Source of the DNA: Chitinophaga caseinilytica | GTDB taxonomy: Bacteria; Bacteroidota; Bacteroidia; Chitinophagales; Chitinophagaceae | Reading direction: 5' to 3' | Assembly: GCF_038396765.1 (NCBI RefSeq) | Contig: NZ_CP150096.1 | Location: 5,687,001-5,751,000 of the forward strand | Length of the DNA: 64,000 bases | In this document: piece by piece, positions 34,231-53,199 of the stretch | Position numbering within the stretch: position 1 is the stretch's first letter | Layout of the letters: every line of letters starts with the position of its first letter | Position numbers and translations under genes: made by a program | The notes under the pieces: model-generated | The model's input: only the letters and a program-made list of their open reading frames with translations | Databases searched by the model: none | Told to the model about the DNA's origin: nothing

Positions 34231-37200
34231 CTATTTCTTTGCCGGGCCGTCATCATCCTGGTAGTAAAATCCCTTGGGGGCGCCGGATATTTTGTTGAGA
34301 TCCAGTTCCAGCATGGTTCCATCTTCCGTAATAGCCCCTACCACGAAGGCTTCGTAAGCTGATATGCTCACCTGTGCCTCGCCGTTCACCGCCCTGCGGA
34401 ACCTGATTTCTTTCGTGAAGGAATTGTGGAGGAAAAACGCGACGTCGCCTGTTAGTGGTTCATCGGTAGTGGAAGTGATTTTTAATTTTACCTTATAGTA
34501 CCCGGAAAGCGGGATCAGCGGGTCTTTCACAGTGGCGGTCAATTGTTTGTTGTTGACGATGTTTTCTCCTCCCCAGCGGCCTTTCTGTAGATCGTCGGGC
34601 ACATGTACAGGGCGGTCTTTGTAGAGTTCCAACACCGAATACATAAACTTATTGGTAACATCCCGGTAATAAAACCCTGACGGCAAACCCTGCACATCGT
34701 TCAGGTCGAGCTCCAGCATGGTACCGTCGCTGATAAATGCGCCGACAGTAAATGCTTCGTAAGCGGTTACCCTTGTTTCGGCCCGGTTTTCCTCCAACTT
34801 TTCATACCAGATTTCGTCGTTAAATGAATCGTGGAGAAATATCGCGATTTCCTTCGCCGATTTGGTGCCCTCCACGCTGTCTACAAAAATGCGGACATTA
34901 TATAATCCAGGTGCGAGCTTCTTTTCTACATTGGCTGTTAACACCCAACCATTGTTCGTAGATTTGCCACCCCAGCGGTTCTTTTGCAGATCGTCTTCCA
35001 CCGTTATGCGGCGCTCCTTGTATAATTTCTGCACCCGTTCCTGGAACGACTCGGGGGCTTCTTCCAGCCTGACGTTAATGGGGATGGTGATGGATGTCCA
35101 ATCGCGGCCGGGCAGTCGTACCGTTTGCCGTTTTTCGGCTTTTACTTCCCGTATCCCACGCGTTGTCTCCTTATTATATTCCAGCGCGTCCTGCTCGAGG
35201 GAATTCAAAGTGATCGGGACCTGCGAGATAAAAATTTTGATGTAATCATATAGCGATCTGACATTTCTACTCTTCAATTCACTTGGGATAATAACGCTTA
35301 TTACATCCGAAACACGCCGGCCCATATCCATACTCAAAGTGTTTGTTTCACCTGACAACAGCCGACTTTCGCCGTTTCCCAAAAAACCATGTATACCAAA
35401 CTCCGAACTGAGATAAAGGGCATTTACGTATAATTCCCGCCCCGACCCATCAATCGTTGAAACCAAGCTGCATCTGAATGCCGGTTGATGTCCATTGACG
35501 TAATTCAAAACCAGTGACTCCGGATCTACCAAAACACCGGAAGGATGTTTATCGGATGTATAATCTTTATATTCACCATCCACAAATGTCTCAAGTTTTA
35601 CTTCCACCCAGTCCCTTTCGATCGTTGACTGCGTATTGTCCAGCTCCAGCATAGCCGTCCATTGCGCGATATACTCCAGTTGCTTGATGAATTCATATGT
35701 ACTGATCTGGTAATCGAAAACCGGTTGTTGCTCCACTGACAGATCGTTCCGTACCAGGTAATACCTTGCTTCCATCGTCCTGACCAGGTATTTCGCATCA
35801 CGTTCATTTTCCACGATGTCGATGTAATAAATTTCATGCCTGTGGATAGCATCTATCAACCTTTGATACATCATGCTTTCCTTATCCATATCGAATGCCA
35901 GCTTTACTTTAGGTAGCGCATTCTGGATGAGCGCCGCAGGATAACGTTCCTCCCGCGCGAGGCTTCCCTCTCCCTGAACGAACGAAAAACCCGGCTCCAC
36001 GTTTGTTACAAACATTTCCTGACCGGCATCTGTCCTGAAAATCGTTCTCATAAAATTCAACGACGGCCGGATGCCAAGGTTCGAACCGGCATTCACGATC
36101 CAGCTTTCCTGCTTTTGGTTGAAACTGATCTCGTAGTCTTTTTCCGTTTTGGGGTTGCTGGTAAACAAAACGTAGTCCGAACAATCTTTCCGGTTTCCGG
36201 TCAGGTTGATTTTTATCGCATCCCCCATTTCGGCAGTTTTCAATTTCAGCCGCTGGAGCAATTGCGCGTAGGTAAGGTCTGTGGCGTTTTCGCGGAGGGA
36301 ATCCATCAGGCTGGTGAAAAAGTCGTTCCGCGTCAGCACCTCGTCGCTGGGTCGTACCTCCTTTTCCAACATCACCAAATTCACAGGACTATCGTCCGGC
36401 AATCCCATCCGCCCCTGCGCTTCGAAACCGAAACCCGGGTTCGCGTGCGCATCGATGATGATGGTGAGATTTACTTTCCGGTTCCCCAAATAGCGGTTCA
36501 GCCAACCCCAAAGACTGTTTTCATATCCGGCGGCGGCAAGCCCGGAATGGGTATCATCGCTGAACATGACATCATACAGGGATGCTGTACCATAGCCAGT
36601 TTTGAGGCAAATGCCGGAGTAGAACAAAATACAGGTATCCCCGTCGTTCGCATGCTCAAATGGCTGCATGGCCTTTATGGCTTCGGCGCGCGTGGCCGCG
36701 GGATCGATGCTGATATCCAAGTCCATATCCAGCACTTCGCTGTAATTTTTCAGCCAGTCGGCAAATACACCGACGTTGTTGGCGGGATACGACATCCTGG
36801 TACGCCCCCTCAACGGCAAGGCGCTGATGCCCCAGCATACTGCCAGGATCTTCGGCGCGGGGGGCGCTGCTTTCATCTCAATTTTTTCATCAGGTTTCCC
36901 GCGGAACCAACGGTATTCATGGTTTGCCCAGGGCACCTGATAAGCGCGTAATAATCCTTCACTTTTACTTCCGTTCGAGTCCGCAAACCATCCTCGCCTG
37001 AATTCGGCATATTCGTCTGGGCTTCTACCTTCAGCGAGCCTGCGGAAAAAATCGATCGCAAAAGTGGCACCGTAATCGTCCCTGATAACCCCTTCACCTC
37101 CGAGCGCAAGCGCGCCGGTCATTTGCGCGGCCCAGGCCGCAAGGTGGCTGGCCCGGCAGGTATTCAGGATCAATACCTGCAAATCCCGCTGAAACTCCAG

Positions 37201-39255
37201 CAACGCCAGAAAATTAGCCGTGCGAAGTGTACCATCCGCCAACACCATATCCCCTTCTTCATCCTGACCCGAATAATAAAAAAGTTCGATCCGCCCGCGG
37301 TAAATTTCCGAATCGAGCGTCCGGGACAACTGGGTAATATCTGGATCATCGAGAATGAGCAGCTCGATGCCGGCTTTTTCAGTAAGATCATTCAACGTTT
37401 CCATGACCGCAACTTTCTCACGTTCCATTTCCTTCAGGCTTTTATGCGGATCTGAGAAAACCAGCAAAAAAACCGCCCCGCGCAAAGTATTATTAAATGT
37501 ATTATTATTGAAGGATTCCAGCTTTTCCAGCACTTCAGAATTACCAGCTTCCCTACCATTCAGAAAGACGCGCCTGAACCGCAGTATAGCGCGTTCGAGC
37601 TCACCATCCATCATTCCGTCCACCCCTTTATGATAAAAACCGGCTTTTTGCAAACCTGACTGCAAACCAACAGTTTGACGCGAACCGGGAATCAGCGACG
37701 CATCCAGCATCCGCTGCGACGCGAATATCTGCGGGGCATGCTTCCTGCGGATGTCCCATTTGGCGTCACCGTATTGCTTCCGGACCTGGGGCATGGCTTC
37801 CAAACCCTTTACTACCTGGTTAAAAAGCCAGCGAATGCTCCCTTCCCCCTGCTTTCGTTTAAGTTGCCGTACAAGCTCGTAGGTAAAATATGAATAGGAC
37901 TTATCGTCGATCTGTGTTTGCTCATTCTTGTAGGGCTCCTGGTCGATCGCGCAACTGGTTATGACCGCGCAGCTGTCTTTATCATTGCTGTTCATCCAAC
38001 TGGGTGAACCTGAATAAGGCGCCTCCAGTACCAATATTACTTCCCTGCTCCTGAAATCACTCAACACGACGCGCATTTCAACCTCATTGAGGCCGTTTCC
38101 GGCATGACTCATAAAGGATTTTCTATTAGCCGGATCAAACACCAACTCCATGTCATCGTCTAAATAGCTTCTTCGACAATGGCAGGAAAAGTAAATCAGC
38201 ACCTGATCATCTGCTGCCGCCGATTCCGCCAACTGGTTCAGCGCGGTCAATACCTTTTGTTTATCCCCTTCACCTGCCGGCAGGGACGTTACCTGCAATT
38301 GCGAAGCGGGCAATATATCCCGGAGGCAATCTTCCAACAGCGCCGCATCATTCCGTGTGCGATCGCTTTTATCCTCGGTTTCTCCCGAAACGATCAACGC
38401 TTTCAACATCGGCTGCGGGCCCGTATCCTTCAGTTGCTGCGCTACTTCGCGTTCCACTTTCACGGCGATCGCGCCTTCCTCCTGTTCCGCAGAAAGCCAG
38501 TCTTCCAGCCCTTCCCGGTTATCCAGCAAGGAAGTGAAACGTTCCATGTTCTGCTGCACCAGCGCCCTTCCCGCCTCCAGCCAGCGGCTTTGCTGCTCAT
38601 AAAGTTGCAGCGCATCCCGTTCGGAATCTGGCAAAATCAACTCCAGCCGCTTATGCGTTTTGGTAAAGAAATCGATCGCCCGCAACAGTGACGTTTCGCT
38701 CCCGGAACGGGCCGCTTCCCGTATCCTGCTTTTCAGCAAACCCGCCACCCGAGCAGGCTGCGTGTAGGAAAGCACATCCATCTGCTGAAGCTCCAGGTAT
38801 TGATCTCCCCAGATATTGCCGATCGGGTTGGGCTGGATATAATACTCGTTCAAAAACGCACTCAGCGTTTCAATAGGGGCAAATTGCCGGGCGCGCTTGG
38901 CTTCCGTGGCGGTTTCGGCTTTCAGCCACTGCAGGAAAGCCAGGCGGATGTCGGGATGCATCTCATACAATTCGTACCCGATTTCCCGGCAAAGTGGCGA
39001 CAGCAGGAGATCAGCCACGGCGATGCGATGGATGGTTACCGACCGCGCGCTCCATTGATAGGTATTGAAATTCTGCCAGAGCTTGTATAACAGGTCGGGC
39101 GTCAGTAACGCCGGAACGGCCGCATATCCCGCCAGCAGGAAATGGCCGTAGGTATAATTACCATAAAACTGTTCCACGTAGCGGCCGTAAAACCATTCTA
39201 CTTTCAGCAGGTCTGCCGCCGACAACAAATCTTTCGGAAAGCTGGCTGGTAACAT
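34231..39255 (-). CDS. Giant protein with degenerate caspase/CHAT-like domains and two YEATS-like domains
   Basis: The 1674-residue product is the last gene of the operon. After an unrecognised helical N-terminal region (1-280) comes a caspase-like domain in which His359 (FSCHCR in place of SGHG) is kept but the DCCHSG loop reads LEAPYSG (near 412), so the catalytic Cys is lost. A peptidoglycan-binding-like helix set follows (525-560, GLQKAGFYHKGVDGMMDGEL). A CHAT-like domain has Gln instead of His (YYSGQD, near 659) but keeps Cys (LILNTCRAS, near 698). Another caspase-like domain has SGI and IIDAHANPGF (near 878 and 933) in place of both catalytic motifs. The C-terminus has two copies of a YEATS-like domain (about 1440-1560 and 1580-1674) with F-L-H-x-S-F and AYEAFxVGAxxxDGTMLELDL. 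It looks like a non-catalytic scaffold, regulator or decoy. Confidence 0.75.
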   Translation of the reverse strand: MLPASFPKDLLSAADLLKVEWFYGRYVEQFYGNYTYGHFLLAGYAAVPALLTPDLLYKLWQNFNTYQWSARSVTIHRIAVADLLLSPLCREIGYELYEMHPDIRLAFLQWLKAETATEAKRARQFAPIETLSAFLNEYYIQPNPIGNIWGDQYLELQQMDVLSYTQPARVAGLLKSRIREAARSGSETSLLRAIDFFTKTHKRLELILPDSERDALQLYEQQSRWLEAGRALVQQNMERFTSLLDNREGLEDWLSAEQEEGAIAVKVEREVAQQLKDTGPQPMLKALIVSGETEDKSDRTRNDAALLEDCLRDILPASQLQVTSLPAGEGDKQKVLTALNQLAESAAADDQVLIYFSCHCRRSYLDDDMELVFDPANRKSFMSHAGNGLNEVEMRVVLSDFRSREVILVLEAPYSGSPSWMNSNDKDSCAVITSCAIDQEPYKNEQTQIDDKSYSYFTYELVRQLKRKQGEGSIRWLFNQVVKGLEAMPQVRKQYGDAKWDIRRKHAPQIFASQRMLDASLIPGSRQTVGLQSGLQKAGFYHKGVDGMMDGELERAILRFRRVFLNGREAGNSEVLEKLESFNNNTFNNTLRGAVFLLVFSDPHKSLKEMEREKVAVMETLNDLTEKAGIELLILDDPDITQLSRTLDSEIYRGRIELFYYSGQDEEGDMVLADGTLRTANFLALLEFQRDLQVLILNTCRASHLAAWAAQMTGALALGGEGVIRDDYGATFAIDFFRRLAEGRSPDEYAEFRRGWFADSNGSKSEGLLRAYQVPWANHEYRWFRGKPDEKIEMKAAPPAPKILAVCWGISALPLRGRTRMSYPANNVGVFADWLKNYSEVLDMDLDISIDPAATRAEAIKAMQPFEHANDGDTCILFYSGICLKTGYGTASLYDVMFSDDTHSGLAAAGYENSLWGWLNRYLGNRKVNLTIIIDAHANPGFGFEAQGRMGLPDDSPVNLVMLEKEVRPSDEVLTRNDFFTSLMDSLRENATDLTYAQLLQRLKLKTAEMGDAIKINLTGNRKDCSDYVLFTSNPKTEKDYEISFNQKQESWIVNAGSNLGIRPSLNFMRTIFRTDAGQEMFVTNVEPGFSFVQGEGSLAREERYPAALIQNALPKVKLAFDMDKESMMYQRLIDAIHRHEIYYIDIVENERDAKYLVRTMEARYYLVRNDLSVEQQPVFDYQISTYEFIKQLEYIAQWTAMLELDNTQSTIERDWVEVKLETFVDGEYKDYTSDKHPSGVLVDPESLVLNYVNGHQPAFRCSLVSTIDGSGRELYVNALYLSSEFGIHGFLGNGESRLLSGETNTLSMDMGRRVSDVISVIIPSELKSRNVRSLYDYIKIFISQVPITLNSLEQDALEYNKETTRGIREVKAEKRQTVRLPGRDWTSITIPINVRLEEAPESFQERVQKLYKERRITVEDDLQKNRWGGKSTNNGWVLTANVEKKLAPGLYNVRIFVDSVEGTKSAKEIAIFLHDSFNDEIWYEKLEENRAETRVTAYEAFTVGAFISDGTMLELDLNDVQGLPSGFYYRDVTNKFMYSVLELYKDRPVHVPDDLQKGRWGGENIVNNKQLTATVKDPLIPLSGYYKVKLKITSTTDEPLTGDVAFFLHNSFTKEIRFRRAVNGEAQVSISAYEAFVVGAITEDGTMLELDLNKISGAPKGFYYQDDDGPAKK

Positions 39256-39257
39256 AG

Positions 39258-40448
39258 CTAGACTTTTTGTTTGAAGATGGCCCGTAAAGTATCCTGGAAG
39301 TTGTATACATCCTGCTCGAATACCGAAACCATATTGAGATGTTTGATATTATCGGAAGCCGTACCTGGCCACCGGTGCCGGGGAACCGGATTCAGCCACA
39401 ATACGCGTGCGCAATGTTCGCGGAGCGATTGCAGGAAAAGATCGGTCTGCTGCTTTCGGAGCCGTACCCGTCCTTTATCCGTATTTCCACGGGCGGCGCC
39501 GGCATCGCTGATCACTACCGCGAGGGTAACGTTACGGTTCGATTTCCGGAGCGCTTCTCCCAGTTTGACCGGGCCGGCCAGGTTGGCCTTCCGGTATACG
39601 TAACCGGCCGGGAAATTCTGAAAATAATATACCGGCGCCCGCCCGTGGCCACCATCGTGCTGCGCGGTGGCGATGAGGCGGTTCGTCAGTTCGTGAAACG
39701 GCATCATCGACCCCTGCACGTCGGCGAGGATGATCAGCGTGTCTTCCCGGTTACGGGTGCCCTGCCGGAATACGGGGGCGAGGAAAAGCCCGTCGCGGGC
39801 GATTTTGAACGCCGTGGCCGGCACGTCCACTTCCGTGGAGTCGAATCCCCGCTCCTTGAAGCGGAGGAACTGCCATCCTTTCACCATGTTGCGGCGGGTG
39901 AGTGAAAAATATTCGTCGGTATGGAGGAACCGGGGATCCGCAGGAAAAGGTTCTCCACCATCCTGGTCATATTCCCCGAAAGCAAGCGGCGTTTTGTAAT
40001 ACATCGTTTTCGAAACCGCCTGTGTTTCTTCGGGACTATCGTCTTTCGTTTTCCGGTTTTTCGTTTTCCGGTTTTCTTCCGCCCCGGTATCCGCTTTCTT
40101 ATCCACGTTTTGCGGCTCCGGCGCCGGAGCGGGCGGCTCCGCGGGCGGCGGCGCTTGCGGTATCTCCATATTCGCCGCTGCCAACGCCGCATCCAGGAGC
40201 CGGTACAATGCAGCGCCCTCCCGGGCGATAGCGGCATCCAGGAGCTCGTCGAAGCGTTTTTCGTCGCGACTGTCCTGCAAATACAGGATGCGGCAAAACC
40301 GGCGGAAAGAGCGCAGGTCTTCTTCCACGGGAATCTGCCCCTGCATCAGGGCGGCCACGAACAGCCGGTATTTATCGAGCCAGCGCTCGTAACTGAGCGA
40401 CAATTCAATCGCCTTGAAAAAATGCCAGAAGAATAATTGTTCGTTCAT
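39258..40448 (-). CDS. vWA/CoxE-like domain protein
   Basis: The 396-residue protein has a helical N-terminus, a Lys/Pro/Ala/Glu-rich linker (about 100-150) and a C-terminal von Willebrand factor A fold. The MIDAS motif reads DVQGSM (near residue 240), with Gln where the first Ser of DxSxS is expected; later strands include LAVVISDAGAARG and LWLNPVPRHRW, the latter typical of CoxE-like vWA proteins. vWA proteins of this class pair with MoxR AAA+ ATPases to remodel or activate a client. It starts 2 bp after moxR stops and ends 2 bp before the giant protein gene, so translation is coupled on both sides. Confidence 0.85.
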   Translation of the reverse strand: MNEQLFFWHFFKAIELSLSYERWLDKYRLFVAALMQGQIPVEEDLRSFRRFCRILYLQDSRDEKRFDELLDAAIAREGAALYRLLDAALAAANMEIPQAPPPAEPPAPAPEPQNVDKKADTGAEENRKTKNRKTKDDSPEETQAVSKTMYYKTPLAFGEYDQDGGEPFPADPRFLHTDEYFSLTRRNMVKGWQFLRFKERGFDSTEVDVPATAFKIARDGLFLAPVFRQGTRNREDTLIILADVQGSMMPFHELTNRLIATAQHDGGHGRAPVYYFQNFPAGYVYRKANLAGPVKLGEALRKSNRNVTLAVVISDAGAARGNTDKGRVRLRKQQTDLFLQSLREHCARVLWLNPVPRHRWPGTASDNIKHLNMVSVFEQDVYNFQDTLRAIFKQKV

Positions 40449-40450
40449 GC

Positions 40451-41584
40451 TCAGGGTATTGTACTGTCTGTTGCCTTGGATTGCCTTTCCTCCAGCTTCT
40501 TCTCCCGCTGAACGGCGGCCTGTGTTTTCAGCAGGGCCTGGTAATATAACGGCAGTTGGTCGAGGTCTTTTTCCGGATCGCTGATATGCCCATTATTGAC
40601 ATCGTAATTGTAAGCCAGGAGCCAATCCAGCAGTTCGCTGGTGGAAACGCGCTTATTGTCTGCCGGGTTTTCTGCGATGCGCTGCCGGAGGGAATGAAAC
40701 ACGGAAATGGCTTTATCGACGAACGATCGCTGGTTTTTCACGAGCCCGGGGATGTGCGCGTCGATGATGCGGACCACCTGCTCGTCTGAAGGGAACCGGA
40801 TGTACATGAACAGGCACCTCCGCAGGAAAGCTTCGGGCAATTCGCGCTCGTCGTTGCTGGTGATGAAAATGATCGGTGGATAGCGGGCTTCGATCACTTC
40901 GCCCGTTTCGGATTCGGGAATGGTGAACCGGCCTTCGTCCAGCTCCAGCAACAGATCGTTCGGGAAATCGATATCCGCCTTGTCGATTTCATCGATGAGC
41001 AAAATGGACGGCGCTTCTGCCGTGGAAGTGAGGAAAGCTTTCGCCAGGGGGCCGAACGTCCGGTATTTCGTCATGTCCTCTTTTTCGACATCCGAGCCGT
41101 TTTTGGACAGCTGCGCATCCCTCAGCCGGGCCACGTGATCGAAATGATACAGGCCGTCTATGGCGCGGGAGGTGGATTTCACCTGCCATTCGAAAAAATG
41201 TTCCTTGTAGTGGTCGCCATACCAGTCAAACGCAACGGATTTGGCGAGCTGGGTCTTTCCGCTCCCGGGTTCCCCTTTCAACAAAATGGGCCTCCGGAGG
41301 ATCTGCACGAGGCGCACGATCTCCTTCAGGTTTTCATCTGCGATGTAGGCGGCGATCGGCTTGCCTTTCACCAGTTTCTCCCCGCCGTCGCCACCATCCG
41401 GGGGCGCAAACCAGCCCGTGCGGGTGGCACCGTCGTACCTGAATTCCCTGACGGGACAGAGCGGTTCCACCGTGCCGATGTATCGATTGCCTGCTGCATC
41501 CTTGGAAATGAATTTATCGGAAACGAACGGAAACTCCGGATCTTCGGTCGGGAAAGGTTTGATTGTAATGTGATTATTTGCCAT
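40451..41584 (-). CDS. MoxR-family AAA+ ATPase
   Basis: The 377-residue protein is an AAA+ ATPase of the MoxR group. Walker A is GEPGSGKTQLA (near residue 105), Walker B ILLIDEIDKAD (near 195), followed by a sensor 1 strand IIFITSNDERELPEAFLRRC with the arginine-finger region. MoxR ATPases act as chaperones with vWA partners, here the adjacent gene. I start at 41584 (MANNHITIKPFP); an ATG at 41614 would overlap the caspase gene by 10 bp and add ten residues and is also possible. Confidence 0.92.
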   Translation of the reverse strand: MANNHITIKPFPTEDPEFPFVSDKFISKDAAGNRYIGTVEPLCPVREFRYDGATRTGWFAPPDGGDGGEKLVKGKPIAAYIADENLKEIVRLVQILRRPILLKGEPGSGKTQLAKSVAFDWYGDHYKEHFFEWQVKSTSRAIDGLYHFDHVARLRDAQLSKNGSDVEKEDMTKYRTFGPLAKAFLTSTAEAPSILLIDEIDKADIDFPNDLLLELDEGRFTIPESETGEVIEARYPPIIFITSNDERELPEAFLRRCLFMYIRFPSDEQVVRIIDAHIPGLVKNQRSFVDKAISVFHSLRQRIAENPADNKRVSTSELLDWLLAYNYDVNNGHISDPEKDLDQLPLYYQALLKTQAAVQREKKLEERQSKATDSTIP

Positions 41585-41604
41585 AAAAATTGAATTAACG
41601 GTAA

Positions 41605-43158
41605 TTAATGCCATAGTTTGCTCGCCAGTTCATCGCGGTTGATACCGAGCTTATCCGATACCCCGTGCACGAAATCCTCGATCCTGCAGGTACCGGTGAT
41701 GAAATATTGACTGATATCCAGCATTCTGAAATTCTCTGTATGGATGGTGCCGCACATGAGCTCGTGCCACTCGCTTACCAGGTTCTCTTCCAGCTCTTCC
41801 ACGGCACTGGCCACAATAACATGCCGGTCTGTTCCCAGGGATTCCAGGAAATCTTCCGGTTTGAAAAACTTTTCCGTTCCCGCCCGCGTGTCCGCAATGA
41901 TGACGATGAGGCTGTTGAACGCGATGTTTCCCTGCACTTCGGATTTGGCCTGTTCCAGCTCTTCCTGTAATTGCCGGCAGAAGGCGATCATTTCCCGGCT
42001 CCTTTCGGCCGATTGGAAACTGCAGCCGAGATAGAGCAACAACGGCCTGTGGGGCCCCGTTGCCGTGCGGAGCAGCCTGCCGCAGATATGCTGGGCGCAC
42101 AGCCGCTTCAGGTTCCCGTCTTGTTGCAGGCCGGTATTGGCGGCCAGTGTTTTCCAGATATCGTTGTCCAGCTTATCCGGTTCCACCGAAATCTGTACAA
42201 AATCCCGGAAATTAAAATACATGGCCATTTTCAATTTCTCCAGGAGTACCTTTCCCTGCATCCGTTGTACGTTGAGGTTGTCGCAGATCGTGGTGATAAC
42301 GATCAGATCTTTCCGGTTTCCTTTCCGGTATTGCCTGCGCAGCTCTTCCTTCTGCGTCTCGAAATTGAGGTGTTTGATAAAAATTTCGGTGAGTACCTCC
42401 ACCGGCGGTACATCCGGATACTTCCGCCGGAAGGCGAATTCCGATTTCCCGCATTCGTTCAGGGGGCGGTATTGCGGCGTTTGCGTGAATCCTGCCACGC
42501 CATTTTCGTTCGCCCACCTTTCGATCAGGTGCTTCACTTCCGTCCGCAGCTCCTTTTCATTGAGATAAAACTCGGGCGCCGTATTCCTCGTCAGCAAATT
42601 GCAGAGCACGCTGGTGAATGGGCTGCCGTCAAAAGCCGCATCCATCGCCAATTCCAGGTTGGCAGCAGCAGTTGCGGCGTAGCGGGAATAGTGCATAGTC
42701 GGATGACTGACGCTCGCCCCTCCCAGCACAGCGCCGCCACAGCAGCAATCGAGGATCAACAGGAGGTTGCGGATTTTCTGCTGGCCGATGTAATTGCCAA
42801 ACCGCTGAAAGAGGTCGTTAAACCCATACCAGGTATCCGCAAAACTGACGTCGGCTTCATAGGGCATGATGTTGCCAACATCCACGCCCGGGATATTGTC
42901 GCCATGCCCCGCGAAGTAAATCAGCAAATGATCGTCTGCCGTCACTACCTTCGACAATGCCTTCAAATGCTCCCCGATCTCGCGGCGGGTGGCCCTATCG
43001 TTGTACAGGCATTTGACTTCGGTGGTATTGTAGGGTATAACGCCGGGCATGCCGTCCAGCGCCGCCGGCGGATGTTCCGGGCGTTCGAAGGTATACCTGT
43101 CCAGCAGCAGCTCTACGAGCCGGGCGGCGTCTTTTACGGGCGTAGTCAGGGGTTTCAA
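41605..43158 (-). CDS. Caspase (C14) family peptidase, main frame (first strand lies in another frame)
   Basis: The frame from TTG 43158 encodes 517 residues. It begins inside the caspase fold at LTTPVKDAARLVELLLDRY, that is after the first beta strand. Both catalytic motifs are intact: His85 in YFAGHGD and the Cys pair in LILDCCCGG (137-142), where the usual His of DCCHSG is Cys. The missing first strand (YYLFVIAIDAYDEKR) is encoded in the frame just upstream (43155-43286). After about residue 250 a second alpha/beta domain follows with LLLYLGCSFQS and SLIVIIADTRAG, which might be a regulatory or inactive NTPase-like domain. The protein should be a cysteine peptidase effector. Its stop lies 20 bp before the moxR start. 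Confidence 0.8.
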   Translation of the reverse strand: MKPLTTPVKDAARLVELLLDRYTFERPEHPPAALDGMPGVIPYNTTEVKCLYNDRATRREIGEHLKALSKVVTADDHLLIYFAGHGDNIPGVDVGNIMPYEADVSFADTWYGFNDLFQRFGNYIGQQKIRNLLLILDCCCGGAVLGGASVSHPTMHYSRYAATAAANLELAMDAAFDGSPFTSVLCNLLTRNTAPEFYLNEKELRTEVKHLIERWANENGVAGFTQTPQYRPLNECGKSEFAFRRKYPDVPPVEVLTEIFIKHLNFETQKEELRRQYRKGNRKDLIVITTICDNLNVQRMQGKVLLEKLKMAMYFNFRDFVQISVEPDKLDNDIWKTLAANTGLQQDGNLKRLCAQHICGRLLRTATGPHRPLLLYLGCSFQSAERSREMIAFCRQLQEELEQAKSEVQGNIAFNSLIVIIADTRAGTEKFFKPEDFLESLGTDRHVIVASAVEELEENLVSEWHELMCGTIHTENFRMLDISQYFITGTCRIEDFVHGVSDKLGINRDELASKLWH

Positions 43159-43286: not shown

Positions 43287-43330
43287 ACGATTATATTCAT
43301 GGGCTTTAGTTGATTTGTAAAGGATCCTGC

Positions 43331-46300: not shown

Positions 46301-46855
46301 AGTGGTAGCGGCGGCGGTGCCCCGCGTGTTGTTCCCTGCGTGGCAGCAATCCATGATCACGAGGCAATGCGGGCCATTCGCCCGAAGCGAGCGCCACAAC
46401 AGGTAAGCGAGCTCCTTGTCGATCAGGTCGCGGCTGCCGGCATTCATGCCGTCTCGGCTATCGACGCACACGATCGTTTCACTTTTACGGTCTGATTTCG
46501 TGTAGGCGAATTCCGGTGCGCTTTCGATCTGCGATCCATGTCCGCTGTAATAAAATACACAAACATCGTTCGGCCCTGCTTTCCCGAGGTGATCGAAGGC
46601 GATGGTCGAAACATTGCTGAATGTGGGGGCATGAATTTCCGAACCGGCGATGGCGGAGCTTTTCAGCAGCTGCCGGTCATGCCCGTTGGGCGCCAGCAGG
46701 TACAGGGGAACATATTCCATTCCGTTTCCCTGCTGGCGGCAGAGCTCGCGGAGGAAGGCATCCATCTTCAGTACATCCTTAATGCAACCATTAAGCGGGT
46801 TGTGCTTGTAATCATCGATCCCGATGAGGGTAGCATACAGTTTTACAGTGCTCAT
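43331..46855 (-). CDS. Caspase-alpha/beta hydrolase (lipase-like) fusion
   Basis: The 1174-residue protein starts at MSTVKLYATLIGIDDYKH (46855), the first strand of a caspase domain; the frame is open further upstream but overlaps the STAND gene there. Catalytic His106 (YYSGHGS) and Cys171 (IMDCCHAG) are intact. The middle (about 480-800) holds beta-rich modules, including a DUF4384-like segment with a counterpart in the giant protein (YVGVLYMSSDFG against YVNALYLSSEFG). The C-terminal 270 residues form an alpha/beta hydrolase: KRILLLVHGIFGD (oxyanion hole), Ser978 in VAHSMGGLVSRYMI, and a late His. The fusion suggests an effector that both cuts proteins and attacks lipids or esters. It starts 10 bp after the STAND gene stops. 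Confidence 0.88.
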   Translation of the reverse strand: MSTVKLYATLIGIDDYKHNPLNGCIKDVLKMDAFLRELCRQQGNGMEYVPLYLLAPNGHDRQLLKSSAIAGSEIHAPTFSNVSTIAFDHLGKAGPNDVCVFYYSGHGSQIESAPEFAYTKSDRKSETIVCVDSRDGMNAGSRDLIDKELAYLLWRSLRANGPHCLVIMDCCHAGNNTRGTAAATTFRSRMDAPSSLIVPLDQYIGFNDPAGFYDPRNGRASIKDANYVKLSAAQDFEKALETDDGGVFTSRLVACLEAGGTARSYQSIIQQLGVSVNNRASDQHPVIEAFPEADMHRSFLKNDIVPYRQTFAVRYANVNGDMKWVMYGGAMQGITASAGNERSLVRVVDGLGKIDVEAEIVATTSELSILSGAGLSSLDINAEHYSAWIFKLAGAAIHIGLTDALKANADLVNRIAAENEKRKPLYADIDFFGQIADPEYVIDVSEDGMLMLCRPPGKMPLFKRTNEIALFLDNANTVGRWQSIAAIVNSSAGFRNEFFDVKLEIVEGQDIRNAANPDGLKGETVDKFQLEDDIRLSYQKGYNPGFRYTISIRDTAPVSECYVGVLYMSSDFGVTAGLVPASAGKLVKGKGAIEMRVPWATGAAYQRTVPVVMNKSYLTHGIIEITDLLRIFVSTQPLDLSRFAQDQLETDVNKVATREVKTRGIGYDDDNGGLTAAADWMVFTHRVLIRRQEKQQVLSEGGTDFSAFKVKVPVGFQAKATAITASDLNGNFRSADNLGNPAAIWGDVLTDSSAFGNSLQQPGNNLVQALELEVTAGLETISEDAPIVISPTIKTSATRSADQPEEVTIPYGFDAESGLYYPLGYSDNNGNVLVTRLPAATPGTLSAAAISTRSIGSSIKLYFCKMFRKPVFGIALYSFADNLAEPLATDPGKMEKWLGKPQSKRILLLVHGIFGDTKGMLASAREMPELAADTEYVMTFDYENLAGSIADSARNLYEALKKSGLAKGGNKVTIVAHSMGGLVSRYMIEFKDGADFVKHLVLVGTPSKGSDITKLPLGIVSLITHALNVTGPVKYVLTGLSFLLKKLKLDATHTLQEMQPDTKIINELAKGQRPESVRYSLLGGDTAQLDRYTGADHFLQKLADAIKRNVVYPGLTARVYDGLANDMAVTVDSMKGVPGLNGHGFVDIVPCDHISYFQDAECRRLLLQYLQHEA

Positions 46856-46865
46856 GACCAGACAT

Positions 46866-49800
46866 TTAGCGGCTGATGCCGAGGGTTTGCAATTCGTTGT
46901 TAGAAAGTTGGGGAATAAATTTTTCCAGGCGGGAAGCGGTGCCATATTGCCAAACCAGTACGCTGTCTCCGCTGGCCGTGATGATATAGGGTTTTCCGGG
47001 AACGCCGGCCATGTTCGTGATCTGCCCAACCGGCCCGGTGAGCGGGCGGATGACCATTTGTAAAATATCAGCCTGCGCCAGTTTCCCGAAATTATCTGCG
47101 ACCAGCACGCTGGAACTATCCAGCAATGAGGCTTTTCGTTGATTACCGAACAGGATGGGAAGTTCCCTGTCCCTGAATTCCCGCTGTGCGGCGCGGGGCT
47201 CCCTGCCTAATTGGGCCAGCAGCAAAGCCGGTTCCGTAGCACCGGAAACCACCGATTTCTGAATGGGGGTATTAGCGGCCGACTGGAGGTAATTCAGCAG
47301 CAGCCACCTTCCATCGGGTGAAAACAGCGCACCGTTCAGCGCCGCGAAATTATCCGGCTTGCGAACGAGCGGCGGACGGTTGCGATTGTAGTCGAAAATG
47401 TCGAAAGTCCCGCGCGCACCGGTTGCTACGAGGTAATTGCCTGCCGGAGAAAGGTAAATGGCCTCCCGTTTGGAGGTGATGGTGCCATACCGGGCATCGA
47501 CCACATCCACATAATATGCAGTGCCGTTTCCGGTAGCCACTATAATTGTTTTGCTGTCTGGTGAAAATACGGCGTCGGTAATTTTTTCCTTTTCCATGAA
47601 CCTGAAAACCTTCCGGCTGAATTTCTCCGTCATTTTCCGGTGATTGGAAAAAATCCGCAGCCGGCCTTCATCGATCAGGAGCACAGACGCCCCGTCCGGC
47701 GATACGGCGGCGGCGGTGATATCCGTTCCGCTGATCCCGTCGGCGGCGTTTTCGTCCAAAAGGGACTCGGTGCGCAGCAATCTTACCTTTTTCTGATGCA
47801 CCAGCATCACGAGCAGCCCGTTCCGCTGGAAAGCGGCGGTACGGAGCCCTGCATTGATATCGATGCTGGTGGAATCCAGTACCCTGAAAGTACCTGTTTC
47901 CAGGAGGTAGAGTTTCTTCAGGCTGCGGGACGCGACGATCATTTTGCTTCCGTCGGGCGATACATCGAATATCTCACCCCGAAAAAGATGGGTGTGGTAA
48001 TATGCCGGTTCCGCCGCCATCTCCTGGAGGTACTGTTCGGCTTCGGCGTTCCCGGGATCCTCTCTCCTTGCGATCTCGGCAATGCGGAAGGCTTTCCCCA
48101 TATCCAGATTCCTGTTGGCATCGGCCAACCGCAGGAGATATCGGATGCCTTGGTTCCTGATATTGCGGATACTGTCATAATACTCTGCGTAGAACCTCGT
48201 AAGTTTAATCTGCCGGTTCAACATGTCCGTCTGAATACTGTCGTTGGTGCGTTGGATGATCTCCTGTTTCTTTCTGATGGCTTCGTCTTTTATTCGAAGG
48301 TCGGCGGCCTGGCGGCGGATCAGAATGTTGTCCAAACGTTGCTTTTCGGCGAGGGCCTGCTGTTGTTGTCTGATGATCCGCTCGTTTTCGGTAGCGGTTT
48401 CGGCAGCGAGCGTTTTGGCGTCTGCCTTCTGCCTTTCCTGTACGGCAACTTTCATATTGGCATCGGCTATCTGCACCTGTAGTTTCAGACTTTTACTATC
48501 CCTGATACTGTTCCATAACGCGAATGTTAACGCAACAGCCGCAATAGTGCTGAGGACTAACATGACCGCCATCAAAAATCTGTTCCGCCGCTGAATCCGT
48601 TCATATGCGTTTTTCTCCGCTTCCCTTCTTTTCTTTTCGGCATCCCTGGCTTCCACGCACGCACGTATGAACTTGGTTTCTTCATTGTTCAACCAGTTAT
48701 TGCTTTCCAGCATCACCTGTTCTACGGAAGGGAGCCATGCGCCTTTGCTCGTCGCTTCCACGTTGTTTTCCTCCAACGCGGCTTTGAGTTTGGTTTGGAG
48801 ATCGAGGACGTCTTTCCCGCTGTCGTTGAACCATTCCATTACCCGGGGCCACGACCTCACGAGGATGTCGTGCGCAGGTTCATAAAACGGATCTTCGGGA
48901 TCCGGGCCTTTCACAATCAGCCGGTTCGTTTTCAGTACGCCCAGCACTTCCTTCACCCGCGAATTCTCCAGTTCGTTTTCTCCGAGGAACTCGCTGGCCA
49001 ACACCCTTTTACCGGCAAAAACCCCTGCAGAAGCGTATATCATGCGTAGCATGACGTTTTTAAGCGTTTGTTCGTATAGCGCAAAATCGTTGGGATGGCT
49101 TTTCCGGATACCGGTGAATACTTCTTCGGCTTTCTTCTGCAAAGCCCCCATGATCCCCTCCTTCGTGTCAAAATCGGCTTTCCGCAAAACGCCGTCCTGC
49201 TTCGATTGGGGAATTCTTTTCATCCGTATGCTGTACCGGTTGTACATTTCGCTCAGGCTGAAGGATATGAGTGGAAGGGCACCCGTAGTCTGCGAGCTGT
49301 ACGCACTGTCCGCGATTTCATCGACCAGCGAAGCCGGGAAAAATTCGAGCCCGGCCAGGTAAGCCGGTTCTTCTATCGCCTCGCAGATTTCTTCGCGCGT
49401 GAAGGGCGGCACAACGAACCGGCCTTCCTTCCATTCTTTTACCAATGGCGATGCCAGGATAAAATGGGTTTCGAAATCGGCCCTCACCGTTACTACGATC
49501 CGGAGGTCATAGGGCTTATGCGGTGCTTTCTGGCCCCAGACCAATCCCAAAATCCGCTCGTAGACGGCCATTTGCAGGTTTTTGTCGCGGATGCGGGTCA
49601 CCAGTTCCTCGAACTGGTCTATCAGCAGGATGTATTTGCCGTTTACGCCATACCTGCACGGTGCCAACGCGGCTTCGATGCTCTCCAGTGGCCGTTCTCC
49701 GGCCCTTATTATGTTCAGCGGCACATATCCTTCGCTTTCCAGGCGGGGGAAAAGACCGGCTTTTATCAAAGAAGATTTCCCTGTGCCGGAGTTCCCCACT

Positions 49801-51131
49801 ACCACTACCAGGTGGTGTTGCAGCACCTTGTTCATCAACTCCCGGATCACTTCCGTACGCCCGTAGAAAGCATGGCTATGCCCGGTATTATAGGCTTCCA
49901 GGCCCATGTACGGGTTCCCGTTCAGGGTGGGTTTGGGATTTTTGCCCCGCATGCGGGAAAGCTTCACGTCCCGGATTACGGACATGAGGCTTTCGTGGGC
50001 CAGCTCATAAATATCGTCTTTCCTTTCGCCGGGCTCCATTCGCTCGCCTACCCTACGGATGATTTTCATTTTGATGAAATGGTCCCGCAGGCCGGTAGAA
50101 CCTTCACCCAGCACCGCTTCTATCTCTGCGCCGGTAACATGCTTCTTTACATCTTCCGTATCCGACAAAAAACGTTTCAATATCCGCCACGCTCCTACCA
50201 CCGGCGCCGCGTCCTGCGCGGCGATGCGGGTATCGAGGAAATATTTCAGTACGTTGCCCTGCGCTTTCAACCATTGCACCGTGTCCTGATCGATCACGGT
50301 CCGCTTCCCTCCCCCTTCCTTTCCATTTCGCTGTGTTTGGGCATGCTGCCAAAGCGCGTCCAGAAATACCTGGAGGTACGGCAGGTCCACCTCCTTGTCC
50401 AGCTTCGCCTCTTTGAGGATCAATGCCGCCATTTCCCGTTCCTGCTTACTGTATTTACCTACCGGCAAGGTAAGCCCGGCGCCTTGCCCCAGCGCGATGC
50501 CGAAATGCGCGCAGGTATCCAGGATCACTTTTTCCGCGGCGGGAACGGTCATGGGCCTGATGCGCAGCTGTTTCCTGAATATTTCCGGCTGCAGGGATTC
50601 CAGTTCTTCCAGTCGCGGCCGGTATTCTTCACGGATCACGAAGATCATCTTGCAGGGCACGTCCAGCCGGCGGAACTGCGCGAGCGTATCGTAAAAGGCA
50701 AAGCGCTCTTCGTCGGTCCCGAATACATAAAATTCTTCGAACTGATCGAAAATCAACAGTAATGGCTCAAAAGTGTCGATGTAAACTTCTTTCAGCAGCT
50801 CACGGGCGTTCAGCCCATCGAGGTACTTCCGCATCTCGGCAGAAACCTTTTCCTGGAGGCGGTCCATCAGGCTTTGGTTGATATCGGTCAGCCGCCGGAC
50901 GGTGATCTTTTTCCATTTGAAATGCTCGATCTTTTCGGCCAGTCCGCATTGGACCAGGCTGGTTTTCCCGGTACCGGAAAACCCGTATACCAACACGATG
51001 TCAGACTCCTCCGTGAGGCGGTACAGGTCAGCGACCTCATCGTTCCTTCCGAAAAAGATATTGCTTTCCTTCTCCAGGAAGGAATCGAACAGCTTAAACG
51101 GACTGCACTGGATTTGCTGGGTGATAGGCAT
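46866..51131 (-). CDS. Twin-STAND NTPase with a membrane segment and a propeller-like C-terminus
   Basis: The 1421-residue protein contains two novel-STAND NTPase modules. The first opens with SPFKLFDSFLEKESNIFFGR, Walker A GFSGTGKTS (50-58) and Walker B LLLIFDQFEEF; the second opens with NPYMGLEAYNTGHSHAFYGR, Walker A GNSGTGKSS (from 445) and Walker B YILLIDQFEEL. A transmembrane helix lies near 849-872 (FLMAVMLVLSTIAAVAL), followed by a Gln/Ala/Arg-rich coiled coil (875-970) and a WD40-like propeller region (about 1010-1421; FDVSPDGSKMIV, AVSPDGASVLLI, VFSPDSKTIIVA, LFSPDGRWLLL). STAND proteins are signal-triggered, oligomerising switches; the propeller probably senses the trigger. Its start lies inside the end of the CHAT gene (38-bp overlap). 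Confidence 0.92.
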   Translation of the reverse strand: MPITQQIQCSPFKLFDSFLEKESNIFFGRNDEVADLYRLTEESDIVLVYGFSGTGKTSLVQCGLAEKIEHFKWKKITVRRLTDINQSLMDRLQEKVSAEMRKYLDGLNARELLKEVYIDTFEPLLLIFDQFEEFYVFGTDEERFAFYDTLAQFRRLDVPCKMIFVIREEYRPRLEELESLQPEIFRKQLRIRPMTVPAAEKVILDTCAHFGIALGQGAGLTLPVGKYSKQEREMAALILKEAKLDKEVDLPYLQVFLDALWQHAQTQRNGKEGGGKRTVIDQDTVQWLKAQGNVLKYFLDTRIAAQDAAPVVGAWRILKRFLSDTEDVKKHVTGAEIEAVLGEGSTGLRDHFIKMKIIRRVGERMEPGERKDDIYELAHESLMSVIRDVKLSRMRGKNPKPTLNGNPYMGLEAYNTGHSHAFYGRTEVIRELMNKVLQHHLVVVVGNSGTGKSSLIKAGLFPRLESEGYVPLNIIRAGERPLESIEAALAPCRYGVNGKYILLIDQFEELVTRIRDKNLQMAVYERILGLVWGQKAPHKPYDLRIVVTVRADFETHFILASPLVKEWKEGRFVVPPFTREEICEAIEEPAYLAGLEFFPASLVDEIADSAYSSQTTGALPLISFSLSEMYNRYSIRMKRIPQSKQDGVLRKADFDTKEGIMGALQKKAEEVFTGIRKSHPNDFALYEQTLKNVMLRMIYASAGVFAGKRVLASEFLGENELENSRVKEVLGVLKTNRLIVKGPDPEDPFYEPAHDILVRSWPRVMEWFNDSGKDVLDLQTKLKAALEENNVEATSKGAWLPSVEQVMLESNNWLNNEETKFIRACVEARDAEKKRREAEKNAYERIQRRNRFLMAVMLVLSTIAAVALTFALWNSIRDSKSLKLQVQIADANMKVAVQERQKADAKTLAAETATENERIIRQQQQALAEKQRLDNILIRRQAADLRIKDEAIRKKQEIIQRTNDSIQTDMLNRQIKLTRFYAEYYDSIRNIRNQGIRYLLRLADANRNLDMGKAFRIAEIARREDPGNAEAEQYLQEMAAEPAYYHTHLFRGEIFDVSPDGSKMIVASRSLKKLYLLETGTFRVLDSTSIDINAGLRTAAFQRNGLLVMLVHQKKVRLLRTESLLDENAADGISGTDITAAAVSPDGASVLLIDEGRLRIFSNHRKMTEKFSRKVFRFMEKEKITDAVFSPDSKTIIVATGNGTAYYVDVVDARYGTITSKREAIYLSPAGNYLVATGARGTFDIFDYNRNRPPLVRKPDNFAALNGALFSPDGRWLLLNYLQSAANTPIQKSVVSGATEPALLLAQLGREPRAAQREFRDRELPILFGNQRKASLLDSSSVLVADNFGKLAQADILQMVIRPLTGPVGQITNMAGVPGKPYIITASGDSVLVWQYGTASRLEKFIPQLSNNELQTLGISR

Positions 51132-53199
51132 TTTTTCCTTTCCTGATAATAAGGTCCTTAAAAAAATCGATTTCGTTTTTCAACTCCTTCATCCTTTCAT
51201 TGATCCTTCTTTTCTTATCTGGCGTGATGGCGCCCAGTTCCGTATCCAGGTACGTACCGGCAGACTTGACCACCCTCATATCTTCCATATTGTTCGAACT
51301 GCGGTATACATAACTGCCGTTGCTGGAGTGGCTGAAAAAATACAGCTTGGCGGCGTCGTTCCCTTTCAGTCCGTTTTCATCGATGATGAACGGGGAAAGG
51401 CTCATGAAATCGCGGAATGTATTCCTGTCGATATCCCGGGCAAACACTACGGAATAGTTATGGAGCGGATTGGCGTATACGCCGCTGTAATCCCCGTCGA
51501 TGTCCGCACCGTCGAGAATGATCCTGCGGATCCAGAACTGGGGCTTGGCCATCGACCGCCGCTGGGAATATTCCACGTCTTTCACGGTGGTCAGCTTGTA
51601 CCGCATGAGGAACCCTGCGCTGGAAAATACCATGATGAGAATTTCTTCCACCCGTTCGCAAACGGAGATTTTATCCAGCTTTTCGAATTCCCCGTTCCGC
51701 AGCGATGCTTTCAGGCCCTGCATGAACAGGTGCACATTTTCGAATGCGTTTTCCCCTTTTTCCGGAAACATCGCGTGCAGTTCCCGGTATTCTTCAATGA
51801 ACGGCGAAATGCCTGCGTTTTCGAAGACCTTCCGGATGGTGACGAGCAACGCCGGACTATTGATCAACGCGTTGTTGGGCTCTCCGGAAGTGATGAAGTT
51901 GCGCAGCACTTCCCACTGGCCGTCTTCCAGCTGCAGATCGCTTCTTTTCATCAGCTCGTCGAGGAAGCAGTTCAGCATGGAAAAGCTCAGTAGCTGCAGG
52001 GCCACATTGTATGCGGAAAGCTGCCGCAGCAGCAGATCGTCGTAGTTTTTACTGTTCGGCACCGCCAGCCCGGCCCTGACGAGTTGATGGAGATGCTGGC
52101 CGATCAGGAAGGGCAAGTGTTTGATGATTTCGTCGGACAAGATGCGGAGCGACCTGGAGTCATCGTTCCTGTCCAGGTTTTCATATTCTGCGCGGATCAG
52201 TTTGATCGACAGCTTCCTCAACACGGCGGGAACGCCTTCATTTTTGGGCGCTTCGTCCCTTTTCAGGAAAGTATAGAATTCAAACGGCAGAAACTTGAGG
52301 GCCGACACCTGGTGGGTCGTGTTAAGAACGTGCTCACATGTTTCCATGTTGTCCTGGTCGGCCTTCGAGCATGCTTCCTTCTCCAGTTGCGCTGCACAAA
52401 CCCGTCTTACCGCCTGGAGGTCCGTGTTGTCCCATTCATCGCGCCCGGCGGTAGAAATATTGCTGGCGATGCTTTTCACCAGTTCCACGCAGGGTTTGTA
52501 ATCGATGTTTTTCGTTTCCATCTGGAATTGCAGCTCGAAGAGCATATTCTTCTGGAGGTATTCCTCATCGGCTACGTAGAGGGAGTAGACATTGCCTTCG
52601 GGCATGGTTGCTTCGCTGTCGGGGAAGTCGATCCCCCTGACGATGCGCTTGAATTCGGGAATGCCTTTGGTATGGGAAGACAGCACGGCGCTTTTGGCAA
52701 ACTCGAATGAGTCTGCCAGGGTGTTCAGGTTATAGTAAGCGGTGTAGAATGCTTTGGCGAAAGCCGTGGCCACGGTATCGTCTACAGCGCCCTGGGTAAC
52801 GATTACCGCTTTTATGTTTGCGGCGATGAGATCGCGGGCCACTGCATCGGTGTTGCAGCCATTGAGGAAAACCAGTTGCAGATGGGGCAATTGGTTCAGT
52901 ATACCGGCAAATTTGTCTATTTGAACGTTCCGATCGAGGAGGTGGACCGTTTTGCCTTTGGCATGGCCGGCGTAATGGAAGATGGTGATGCGGCCTTTGT
53001 TTTCAGGGATGGCCAGATCGCCGATGACGCTATCGAAGGTGGCGTTGGGCACGGGGCGGAAGTTCATCTTCTGGCCGTCGGTAAATAATGCCCGCAACAC
53101 TTCCAGTTCCTTGTCGATCTCCAATGCCATGTCGCGCTCGCCTTTCGCATCCGCAAACGCAGCCAAAATCATTGGTACCATATAATTGCTTTTATCCAT
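51094..53199 (-). CDS. CHAT-domain protease, first gene of the conflict operon
   Basis: The 701-residue protein starts with a CHAT (caspase-like) peptidase of about 200 residues: His79 in HYAGHAKGK and Cys115 in FLNGCNTDAVA, both intact. The short distance between them and the following VIVTQGAVDDTVATAFAKAF match the family. The remaining 500 residues are mostly helical with a C-terminal beta-rich part (from about 520), not recognised; they may be effector-associated or adaptor domains. The gene overlaps the STAND gene by 38 bp, so the two are translationally coupled and the STAND protein probably controls it. In the 283 bp upstream (53200-53482) I found no convincing TAnnTTTG promoter or hairpin. 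Confidence 0.85.
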   Translation of the reverse strand: MDKSNYMVPMILAAFADAKGERDMALEIDKELEVLRALFTDGQKMNFRPVPNATFDSVIGDLAIPENKGRITIFHYAGHAKGKTVHLLDRNVQIDKFAGILNQLPHLQLVFLNGCNTDAVARDLIAANIKAVIVTQGAVDDTVATAFAKAFYTAYYNLNTLADSFEFAKSAVLSSHTKGIPEFKRIVRGIDFPDSEATMPEGNVYSLYVADEEYLQKNMLFELQFQMETKNIDYKPCVELVKSIASNISTAGRDEWDNTDLQAVRRVCAAQLEKEACSKADQDNMETCEHVLNTTHQVSALKFLPFEFYTFLKRDEAPKNEGVPAVLRKLSIKLIRAEYENLDRNDDSRSLRILSDEIIKHLPFLIGQHLHQLVRAGLAVPNSKNYDDLLLRQLSAYNVALQLLSFSMLNCFLDELMKRSDLQLEDGQWEVLRNFITSGEPNNALINSPALLVTIRKVFENAGISPFIEEYRELHAMFPEKGENAFENVHLFMQGLKASLRNGEFEKLDKISVCERVEEILIMVFSSAGFLMRYKLTTVKDVEYSQRRSMAKPQFWIRRIILDGADIDGDYSGVYANPLHNYSVVFARDIDRNTFRDFMSLSPFIIDENGLKGNDAAKLYFFSHSSNGSYVYRSSNNMEDMRVVKSAGTYLDTELGAITPDKKRRINERMKELKNEIDFFKDLIIRKGKNAYHPANPVQSV

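Follow-up and report, generated by a model that had tools for sequence, protein, structure and literature searches.

The seven-gene cluster described here does not amount to a novel machine of seven parts. The lower four genes form a divergent member of a type of ternary system already predicted in print, and the locus is best read, with fair rather than full confidence, as a composite conflict operon (defence or cell death) around an iSTAND-type MoxR-vWA core. This core is made up of a caspase fused to a probable degenerate STAND module, a MoxR ATPase, a vWA protein and a separate vWA-L linker protein with dead peptidase domains and pYEATS. The cluster lies in the window, that is, the whole stretch of 64,000 nucleotides of Chitinophaga caseinilytica DNA that was analysed.

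Organization of the locus

The host is a soil bacterium and the seven genes together resemble a bacterial immune or cell-death machine. The coordinates of the seven long open reading frames agree with the initial annotation in placing all genes on the minus strand, closely packed and in the order that it gave, with a 38-bp overlap between the CHAT and STAND genes. The second caspase and MoxR genes overlap by 10 bp, and gaps of 2 bp separate MoxR from vWA and vWA from the last gene. The gap between the STAND and caspase-hydrolase genes is 10 bp if the latter starts at ATG 46855 (the program-called start is TTG 47029). The features are as follows.

51094..53199, minus strand: CHAT peptidase protein, 701 aa, H79/C115 (Pfam CHAT 5.8e-10; motifs)
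46866..51131, minus strand: twin nSTAND1 NTPase protein with C-terminal WD40-like region, 1421 aa (Pfam nSTAND1 4.8e-100; motifs)
43331..46855, minus strand: caspase (H106/C171), middle beta domain and alpha/beta hydrolase (AHSMGG), 1174 aa from ATG 46855
43159..43300, minus strand: N-terminal piece of the caspase of the caspase-iSTAND protein, in the other frame only (in one frame in relatives P0002-P0004)
41605..43158, minus strand: caspase-iSTAND protein (third component of the core), open frame from TTG 43158, 517 aa (Pfam C14 1.9e-11; profile; model)
41608..42423, minus strand: probable degenerate STAND (iSTAND-like) half of this protein, residues 246-517, P-loop absent
40451..41614, minus strand: MoxR AAA+ ATPase, Walker A GEPGSGKT, Walker B LIDEID, 387 aa (Pfam AAA_5 9.9e-9; motifs; tree)
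39258..40448, minus strand: CoxE-type vWA protein, 396 aa (Pfam VWA_CoxE 3.7e-10)
34231..39255, minus strand: vWA-L linker, pseudo-peptidase and pYEATS protein, 1674 aa
38491..39255, minus strand: vWA-L region, residues 1-255, all helical in the model (alignment A3; model; G794 fusion)
37681..38418, minus strand: dead caspase-like domain c1, residues 280-525
36976..37488, minus strand: dead CHAT-like domain c2, residues 590-760 (CHAT profile match 1.9e-9; motifs)
36151..36858, minus strand: dead caspase-like domain c3, residues 800-1035
35056..36150, minus strand: beta domain common to the caspase-hydrolase protein, residues 1036-1400 (profile match 1.3e-34; BLASTP 8e-16)
34246..35055, minus strand: pYEATS domains, residues 1401-1670, best stretch 1587-1654 (Pfam pYEATS 1.3e-20, two stretches)

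The profile search that the initial annotation had proposed for each protein found Pfam families in all seven. The caspase-hydrolase protein matches caspase C14 (3.3e-19) and DUF7379/alpha-beta hydrolase (Abhydrolase_1, 2.4e-13), and the last protein has a C14-like match (4.1e-8). The two NTPase modules proposed for the STAND gene correspond to two stretches of nSTAND1, with both P-loops and both DQFEE motifs present, and the MoxR and vWA assignments were upheld by their families and the Walker motifs. The WD40-like Pfam matches on the STAND protein are below cut-off, and the vWA protein also matches NCBIfam SAV_2336_NTERM (4e-12, 45.8 bits against a 200-bit cut-off). The catalytic positions named earlier hold in the CHAT protein, in the caspase-hydrolase protein (numbered from ATG 46855) and in the second caspase (H85 and a DCCC motif).

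The ternary core

The four-gene core was found in 20 genomes. Its order is the same in the 19 besides the window, one of these loci being cut by a contig end, and with this recurrence the arrangement is not due to chance. In 20 of 20 loci a MoxR-clade AAA+ gene is followed directly by a vWA gene and is immediately preceded by the same kind of peptidase gene. The peptidase of this third component is a caspase in 9 of the 20 loci and CHAT in 11 (G805 and G808 by eye). It is a signalling peptidase N-terminal to the iSTAND-like part, and the caspase motifs of the window are of the active type. The initial annotation took the vWA gene and the last gene as separate components. They are two halves of one: in G794 the vWA protein is fused to what is here the beginning of the last protein. 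The vWA arm carries a vWA-L linker, a name that is based on position and helical make-up, and a variable effector part; the alignment A3 profile includes cyanobacterial rows.

Fusion of the second caspase to a degenerate STAND-like module is absent from the initial annotation, and its view of this caspase as a single intact gene did not stand, as the gene changes frame in this assembly. The open reading frame opens only at TTG 43158, which corresponds to position 16 of the caspase profile, and the apparent first strand of the caspase fold lies just upstream in a different frame. Relatives P0002-P0004 (565-567 aa) have both caspase pieces in one frame. The caspase-iSTAND copy in this strain may be dead because of this frame change. 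It is possible, at somewhat less than an even chance, that the locus is decayed and its core has lost its function in this strain. The caspase is split over two frames, and the second cassette of the strain likewise has frame changes, in its caspase and caspase-subtilase genes. However, each of the other six reading frames runs open from end to end, the relatives are intact, and sequencing slips could also account for frame changes of this sort at two loci of one assembly. Decay in this strain is compatible with the composite-operon explanation for the family as a whole.

Pfam iSTAND (PF19995) does not match the caspase-iSTAND protein of the window, and a direct comparison of its iSTAND half with cyanobacterial iSTAND gives a weak match (E 0.0025, probability 12%). 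Both results count against the composite-operon explanation, as do the frame change and the modest confidence of the predicted models of the caspase-iSTAND protein and the vWA-L region (pLDDT 65 and 69). With hhalign, the clade of the window's third component matches those of other Bacteroidota (E 1.3e-5), and these match cyanobacterial iSTAND (E 3.6e-14). This link is seen only with eight rows and the intermediate group: when three rows were used for the window half, a first hhalign run found no match (E 0.2), and subsets alone are weak (G330, E 0.019; G757/G684, E 0.0041). We read the third component of the window as a probable inactive STAND domain, by this chain of profiles and not by a direct match. 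The profile test of iSTAND homology covers 12 of the 20 loci and phmmer adds G788, G783, G839 and G805, with G799, G808, G806 and G794 outside. The GxxxxGK[ST] motif is absent in 22 of 23 third components, and one such string occurs in G806. Foldseek of the caspase-iSTAND model returned AAA+ matches with low TM-scores in a table without ranges; the AAA+ half of the model is taken solely from Foldseek, because the VIA-align rows cover residues 7-247 only.

The last protein and its dead peptidase domains

The last protein is the most distinctive part of the locus, with three predicted caspase- or CHAT-like domains whose catalytic pairs are broken. By profile comparison each dead domain matches one active peptidase of the operon: c1 the caspase of the caspase-iSTAND protein, c2 the CHAT protein, and c3 with the beta domain the caspase-hydrolase protein. 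The profiles contained 6 rows for the last protein, 7 for the caspase-hydrolase protein, 3 for the caspase of the caspase-iSTAND protein and 1 for CHAT. The catalytic pairs are broken in all aligned rows (9/9, 9/9 and 8/8; P0006 is gapped at c3, hence 8 rows there). The c2 assignment is based on sequence profiles, because its structural match, SAVED-CHAT, extends across two domains with an rmsd of 13 A. The caspase tree unites c3 in a single clade (100/99) and puts c1 mostly together, with weak placement of both relative to the active groups, where long branches meet. The CHAT domain tree is largely unresolved. P0007 was left out of the two domain trees because it has the same domain coordinates and scores as G788. 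A recent origin of the dead domains by duplication of the active peptidases encoded in this operon was considered and is unsupported, each dead kind being an old group of its own.

Catalytically dead relatives are kept beside active caspases in animals as well, where the pseudo-caspase cFLIP acts as a regulator. The likeness to cFLIP is an analogy alone and no homology is claimed. The last protein could be a pseudo-peptidase array on the vWA-L arm, which either gates the active peptidases as cFLIP does or, like an integrated decoy, baits phage inhibitors of them, and which MoxR-vWA would prise open. This is a speculative and rather doubtful reading. The one-to-one profile matches and the broken pairs in every aligned row speak for it, but the separate and old origin of each dead kind does not, and the full triad was seen only in the window, G788, P0008, P0009 and G667, where it is split over two genes. 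The dead domains also persist where the matching active gene is missing. In G667 and G590 they are kept without it in the operon, although G667 has a caspase-hydrolase gene elsewhere in its genome; the G788 genome keeps them, yet no full-length caspase-hydrolase was found in it.

Modularity of the locus

Matches to CHAT were found in 13 of 79 genomes and to the caspase-hydrolase in 34 of 79, and 10 loci were fetched from these. All 4 loci examined for the CHAT-STAND pair have it apart from MoxR; L217, a CHAT protein that stands alone, is without a Pfam match and takes its name from its match to the CHAT of the window. All 6 loci examined for the caspase-hydrolase gene have it in another cassette, which consists of four genes. 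Around the core, the CHAT-STAND pair is found upstream in 3 of 20 loci and the caspase-hydrolase gene inside or beside it in 9 of 20, and 5 of 20 (G590, G667, G805, G808 and G794) have no extra peptidase gene in the fetched stretch. At the syntenic site, two relatives are without the operon. The initial annotation had set genes lying apart, with no kept order in relatives, against its proposal: the genes do occur apart, but gene order inside each module is kept.

The possibility that three separate systems lie side by side in a variable locus with no functional link, as in a defence island, is unlikely. Each module does occur alone or in other company, the site is variable, and in G698 and G806 the caspase-hydrolase gene is convergent to the core. 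However, the same-strand genes overlap or nearly touch in the window, the caspase-hydrolase gene is repeatedly associated with the core, and c2, c3 and the beta domain of the last protein are homologous to CHAT and caspase-hydrolase.

The initial annotation favored a single integrated machine in which STAND senses for all genes, MoxR-vWA primes, and peptidases and lipase execute in a fixed chain, and this is now quite improbable. The tight same-strand packing is consistent with it, as are G788, of the same genus, where six of the seven occur in this order, and G330, of another family, which has a similar seven-part order with LRR in place of pYEATS. (The STAND protein of G330 is shorter with one nSTAND module matched, and no hydrolase was detected on its caspase.) The counts given above argue against it, since both outer modules also occur away from MoxR and the core often lacks them. 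The conflict-type architecture of MoxR-vWA, STAND, caspases and hydrolase agrees with published ternary systems; the seven genes as one fixed system, and as a general rule, were set aside because the modules vary among loci. The idea that the STAND protein senses for the entire operon finds no support, because the core has a third component of its own.

It is very improbable that MoxR and vWA are a housekeeping chaperone pair of the CoxD/CoxE kind with neighbors acquired by chance: the vWA protein is CoxE-type and many of the MoxR matches listed are proteobacterial and CoxD-like by our own label, but in a tree of 28 rows the window MoxR groups with the ternary rows, apart from three proteobacterial contrast rows (their CoxD name is also our own), no metabolic enzyme operon adjoins the core in the window, and the same kind of peptidase gene directly precedes MoxR in every locus.

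The composite-operon explanation has to accommodate an operon GC content that does not stand out (0.534 against 0.522 for the window) and a lack of promoter evidence for one transcript. Across the window, the -33/-7 promoter consensus of Bacteroidota is matched 3 times, where 0.86 matches would be expected, and no match falls within the operon or beside it. Sigma-70-like matches are at chance level (16 against 14.4 expected), and terminator-like matches are somewhat above it (33 against 25.1 expected, sd 5.7).

Comparison with known systems

Avs and bNACHT anti-phage proteins have a STAND NTPase and a C-terminal repeat region beside a peptidase effector; NCBIfam Avs4 reaches 23.9 bits here, against a 1500-bit cut-off. 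PADLOC called no system, giving a generic caspase model and weak ATPase matches, and a PADLOC-listed system was set aside.

MoxR-vWA ternary systems were predicted in 2020-2021 (PMC7159879, PMC8195603). Their conflict function is a prediction in the published papers too (PMC7159879, PMC10907252), a 2024 paper describes its own related proposal as still to be tested (PMC10907252), and the available portions of this literature report no experimental test. The iSTAND ternary system, reported from Bacteroidetes as well, shares with the locus MoxR, a CoxE-type vWA protein and a third component with an N-terminal peptidase and, probably, a degenerate STAND domain (PMC7159879). In contrast to that system, the third component of the window is too divergent for Pfam iSTAND, the variable part consists of three dead peptidase domains and pYEATS, and CHAT-STAND and caspase-hydrolase genes are attached; the term CHAT is absent from the text of that paper. 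With respect to the iSTAND2 and TERNS3 systems (PMC8195603), the third component was matched to iSTAND, the sole profile of these that was compared. VMAP ternary systems pair a caspase with an alpha/beta hydrolase that is encoded by a neighbor whenever the caspase is present (PMC7159879), whereas the two are fused in one protein in the window. The VMAP class was set aside, as there is no VMAP family among Pfam matches up to E 0.01 for the seven proteins.

Proposed mechanism and implications

Judging from the published architecture, the caspase-iSTAND protein would sense a trigger and hold a caspase, and MoxR with vWA would act as a chaperone switch, driven by ATP, that determines the threshold for firing, in a system with a presumed conflict function. 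The separate vWA-L protein with its three dead domains and pYEATS would complete the vWA arm as scaffold, substrate or brake. Upon the trigger, the caspases would be set free and enter a proteolytic cascade in which the likeliest executioner is the caspase-hydrolase fusion; the target of the hydrolase is a guess, as are the order of events, the role of the dead domains and co-transcription. The CHAT/twin-STAND pair may be a second, self-contained sensor-protease module inside the same cluster.

The locus adds a divergent Chitinophagaceae branch to the ternary systems, in which active caspases, CHAT, a caspase-hydrolase fusion and a dead-peptidase protein are combined. It shows that loci of this kind are put together from modules which also exist on their own, and the core, the CHAT-STAND pair and the caspase-hydrolase/caspase-subtilase cassette are separable candidate units for phage defence or cell death. 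The locus is also relevant to the question of how inactive peptidases become regulators of active ones. If the last protein is indeed a pseudo-peptidase array, it would be a protease-decoy checkpoint in bacteria.

The operon and its second caspase

The initial annotation's seven open reading frames on one strand were borne out, in the order CHAT, STAND, caspase-hydrolase, caspase, MoxR, vWA and large protein, and the identities it had guessed for the genes agree with Pfam matches. The catalytic residues are also where it had placed them, except that the second caspase has an open frame that starts only inside the caspase fold. This frame begins at TTG 43158, position 16 of the caspase profile, and directly upstream another frame resembles the first strand of the fold. 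In the relatives' proteins P0002-P0004 the first strand and the rest of the caspase are joined in a single frame. The window's copy may be broken; decay and a sequencing slip both fit the frame change. In the strain's second, unlinked cassette (locus L017) the caspase and caspase-subtilase genes both change frame when compared with genome G812.

A conserved core resembling a ternary system

The lower four genes form a core that recurs. A profile of vWA-L, the linker region following vWA, matched 2 of 395 genomes in the phylum, 10 of 394 in the family and 12 of 79 in the genus, the three samples overlapping. The profile led to 19 genomes and MoxR added G095, giving 20 genomes with the core, the window's included. 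In all 20 loci the gene immediately preceding MoxR encodes 517-677 aa. Nine of these genes are of the caspase type and 11 of the CHAT type, those of G805 and G808 being assigned to CHAT by eye. The vWA gene follows MoxR in 20/20 loci, that of G095 being cut by the contig end, and vWA-L is present in 19/19, as a separate gene in 18 and fused in one. Core neighbours overlap or lie no more than 71 bp apart in the listed loci, part of the overlaps being due to the choice of the longest frame.

When MoxR was used as the query, Pollutibacter soli came first (57% identity), followed by cyanobacterial matches and a MAG assigned to Chloroflexi. Six loci from this search (L026-L031) have MoxR, then a vWA match, then a protein whose start matches the last protein of the window at residues of about 25-190. 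Two cyanobacterial loci had their upstream proteins scanned, and both are Pfam iSTAND (4e-34 and 3e-33). The layout of iSTAND, MoxR and vWA is that of the iSTAND MoxR-vWA ternary system of Kaur et al. 2020 (PMC7159879).

Since a single 1881-aa protein in G794 carries vWA, a vWA-L match and a variable part, the vWA protein and the last protein of the window represent two halves of one component. This fusion (L159 12681-18323) has vWA, vWA-L, caspase-like and pYEATS-like parts and ends in a LuxR-type HTH (GerE 2e-16), possibly a DNA-binding output. In the variable place, one cyanobacterial vWA-L protein has CHAT and DUF1257 (L027 12336-14909) and another has CHASE2 (L028 12302-14398). The last protein of G788 is 1629 aa long, as is the relatives' protein P0007.

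The upper genes as modules

The upper genes of the operon are modules. A CHAT-STAND pair lies upstream of the core on the same strand in 3/20 loci (the window, G788 and G330), and G543 (L121/L122) has a CHAT-STAND fusion, a single reading frame of 1431 aa, downstream of the core. The G543 cluster also holds a caspase-STAND-like gene on the opposite strand. Nine of the 20 loci (the window, G757, G684, G558, G071, G543, G689, G698 and G806) carry the caspase-hydrolase fusion within the cluster or next to it; in G698 and G806 it is convergent to the core. G330, G783, G799 and G839 have a caspase gene in which the hydrolase was not detected. Subtilase genes occur in G071, G689 and G095, with a caspase part wherever the gene is seen whole. 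In five of the 20 (G590, G667, G805, G808 and G794) the sequence retrieved showed no further peptidase gene.

The same modules are found away from MoxR. In 4/4 loci examined (L217-L220, from four same-genus genomes) CHAT and twin-STAND form a two-gene pair of the window's kind, and neither MoxR nor vWA was seen in the sequence retrieved. Caspase-hydrolase and caspase-subtilase genes are divergent from a CHAT-nSTAND1 pair in 6/6 loci examined (L211-L216), a recurrent four-gene cassette in six same-genus genomes that possibly constitutes an independent conflict system. A similar cassette, with frame changes and no hydrolase detected, lies near 3.23 Mb in the strain's own genome (L017 7541-18249).

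A similar order of seven parts is seen in G330, which belongs to another family. Since its MoxR, on a long branch, sits in another part of the tree, we infer that the seven-part assembly probably arose more than once.

Genomic site

The genome is a single contig of 6.5 Mb, of which the window covers 64 kb, and the operon is flanked by two genes:

32990-34189, + strand, di-haem cytochrome c peroxidase gene, on one side
53483-54601, - strand, acyltransferase gene, on the other side

A close peroxidase gene was found in three genomes besides the window's when 30 same-genus genomes were searched. The site carries the operon as variable cargo, since G780 and G785 keep both flanking genes without it, G780 with a 108-aa ORF in between (389 bp in all) and G785 with two other genes. 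The stretch fetched from G794 showed no acyltransferase gene. The GC content of the operon (0.534) does not differ markedly from that of the window (0.522).

Elsewhere in the window, positions 20656-26320 have 33-40% GC versus about 55% around them, and look like a separate acquired island. This stretch holds a KAP-family P-loop NTPase gene (24448-25854, 2.7e-43) and ORFs 21346-22551 and 22551-23675, which have no Pfam match. Two adjoining - strand ORFs (17211-18275 and 18301-19305) have near-identical starts (CLNCGHxVPDRFCGHCGQENV) and by sequence represent a zinc-ribbon-like protein duplicated in tandem.

Predicted function

No description of the window's gene combination was found in the passages covered from the literature on MoxR/vWA/CHAT/caspase, MoxR-vWA anti-phage, iSTAND, CHAT/caspase/nSTAND/subtilisin, CATRA and ternary systems since 2022, most subscription journals lying outside it. 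A pYEATS search, with most subscription journals outside its coverage, found no paper. The switch role of MoxR-vWA and the sensor role of iSTAND come from published proposals, themselves predictions (PMC7159879, PMC8195603, PMC10907252). The caspase-iSTAND protein would be sensor and peptidase, MoxR-vWA would set an ATP-driven threshold, and the dead-peptidase arm could be a scaffold, substrate or brake, with the caspase-hydrolase gene and the CHAT-STAND pair as putative extra arms. The best-supported reading of the operon is a ternary conflict switch, with a predicted role in defence or cell death.
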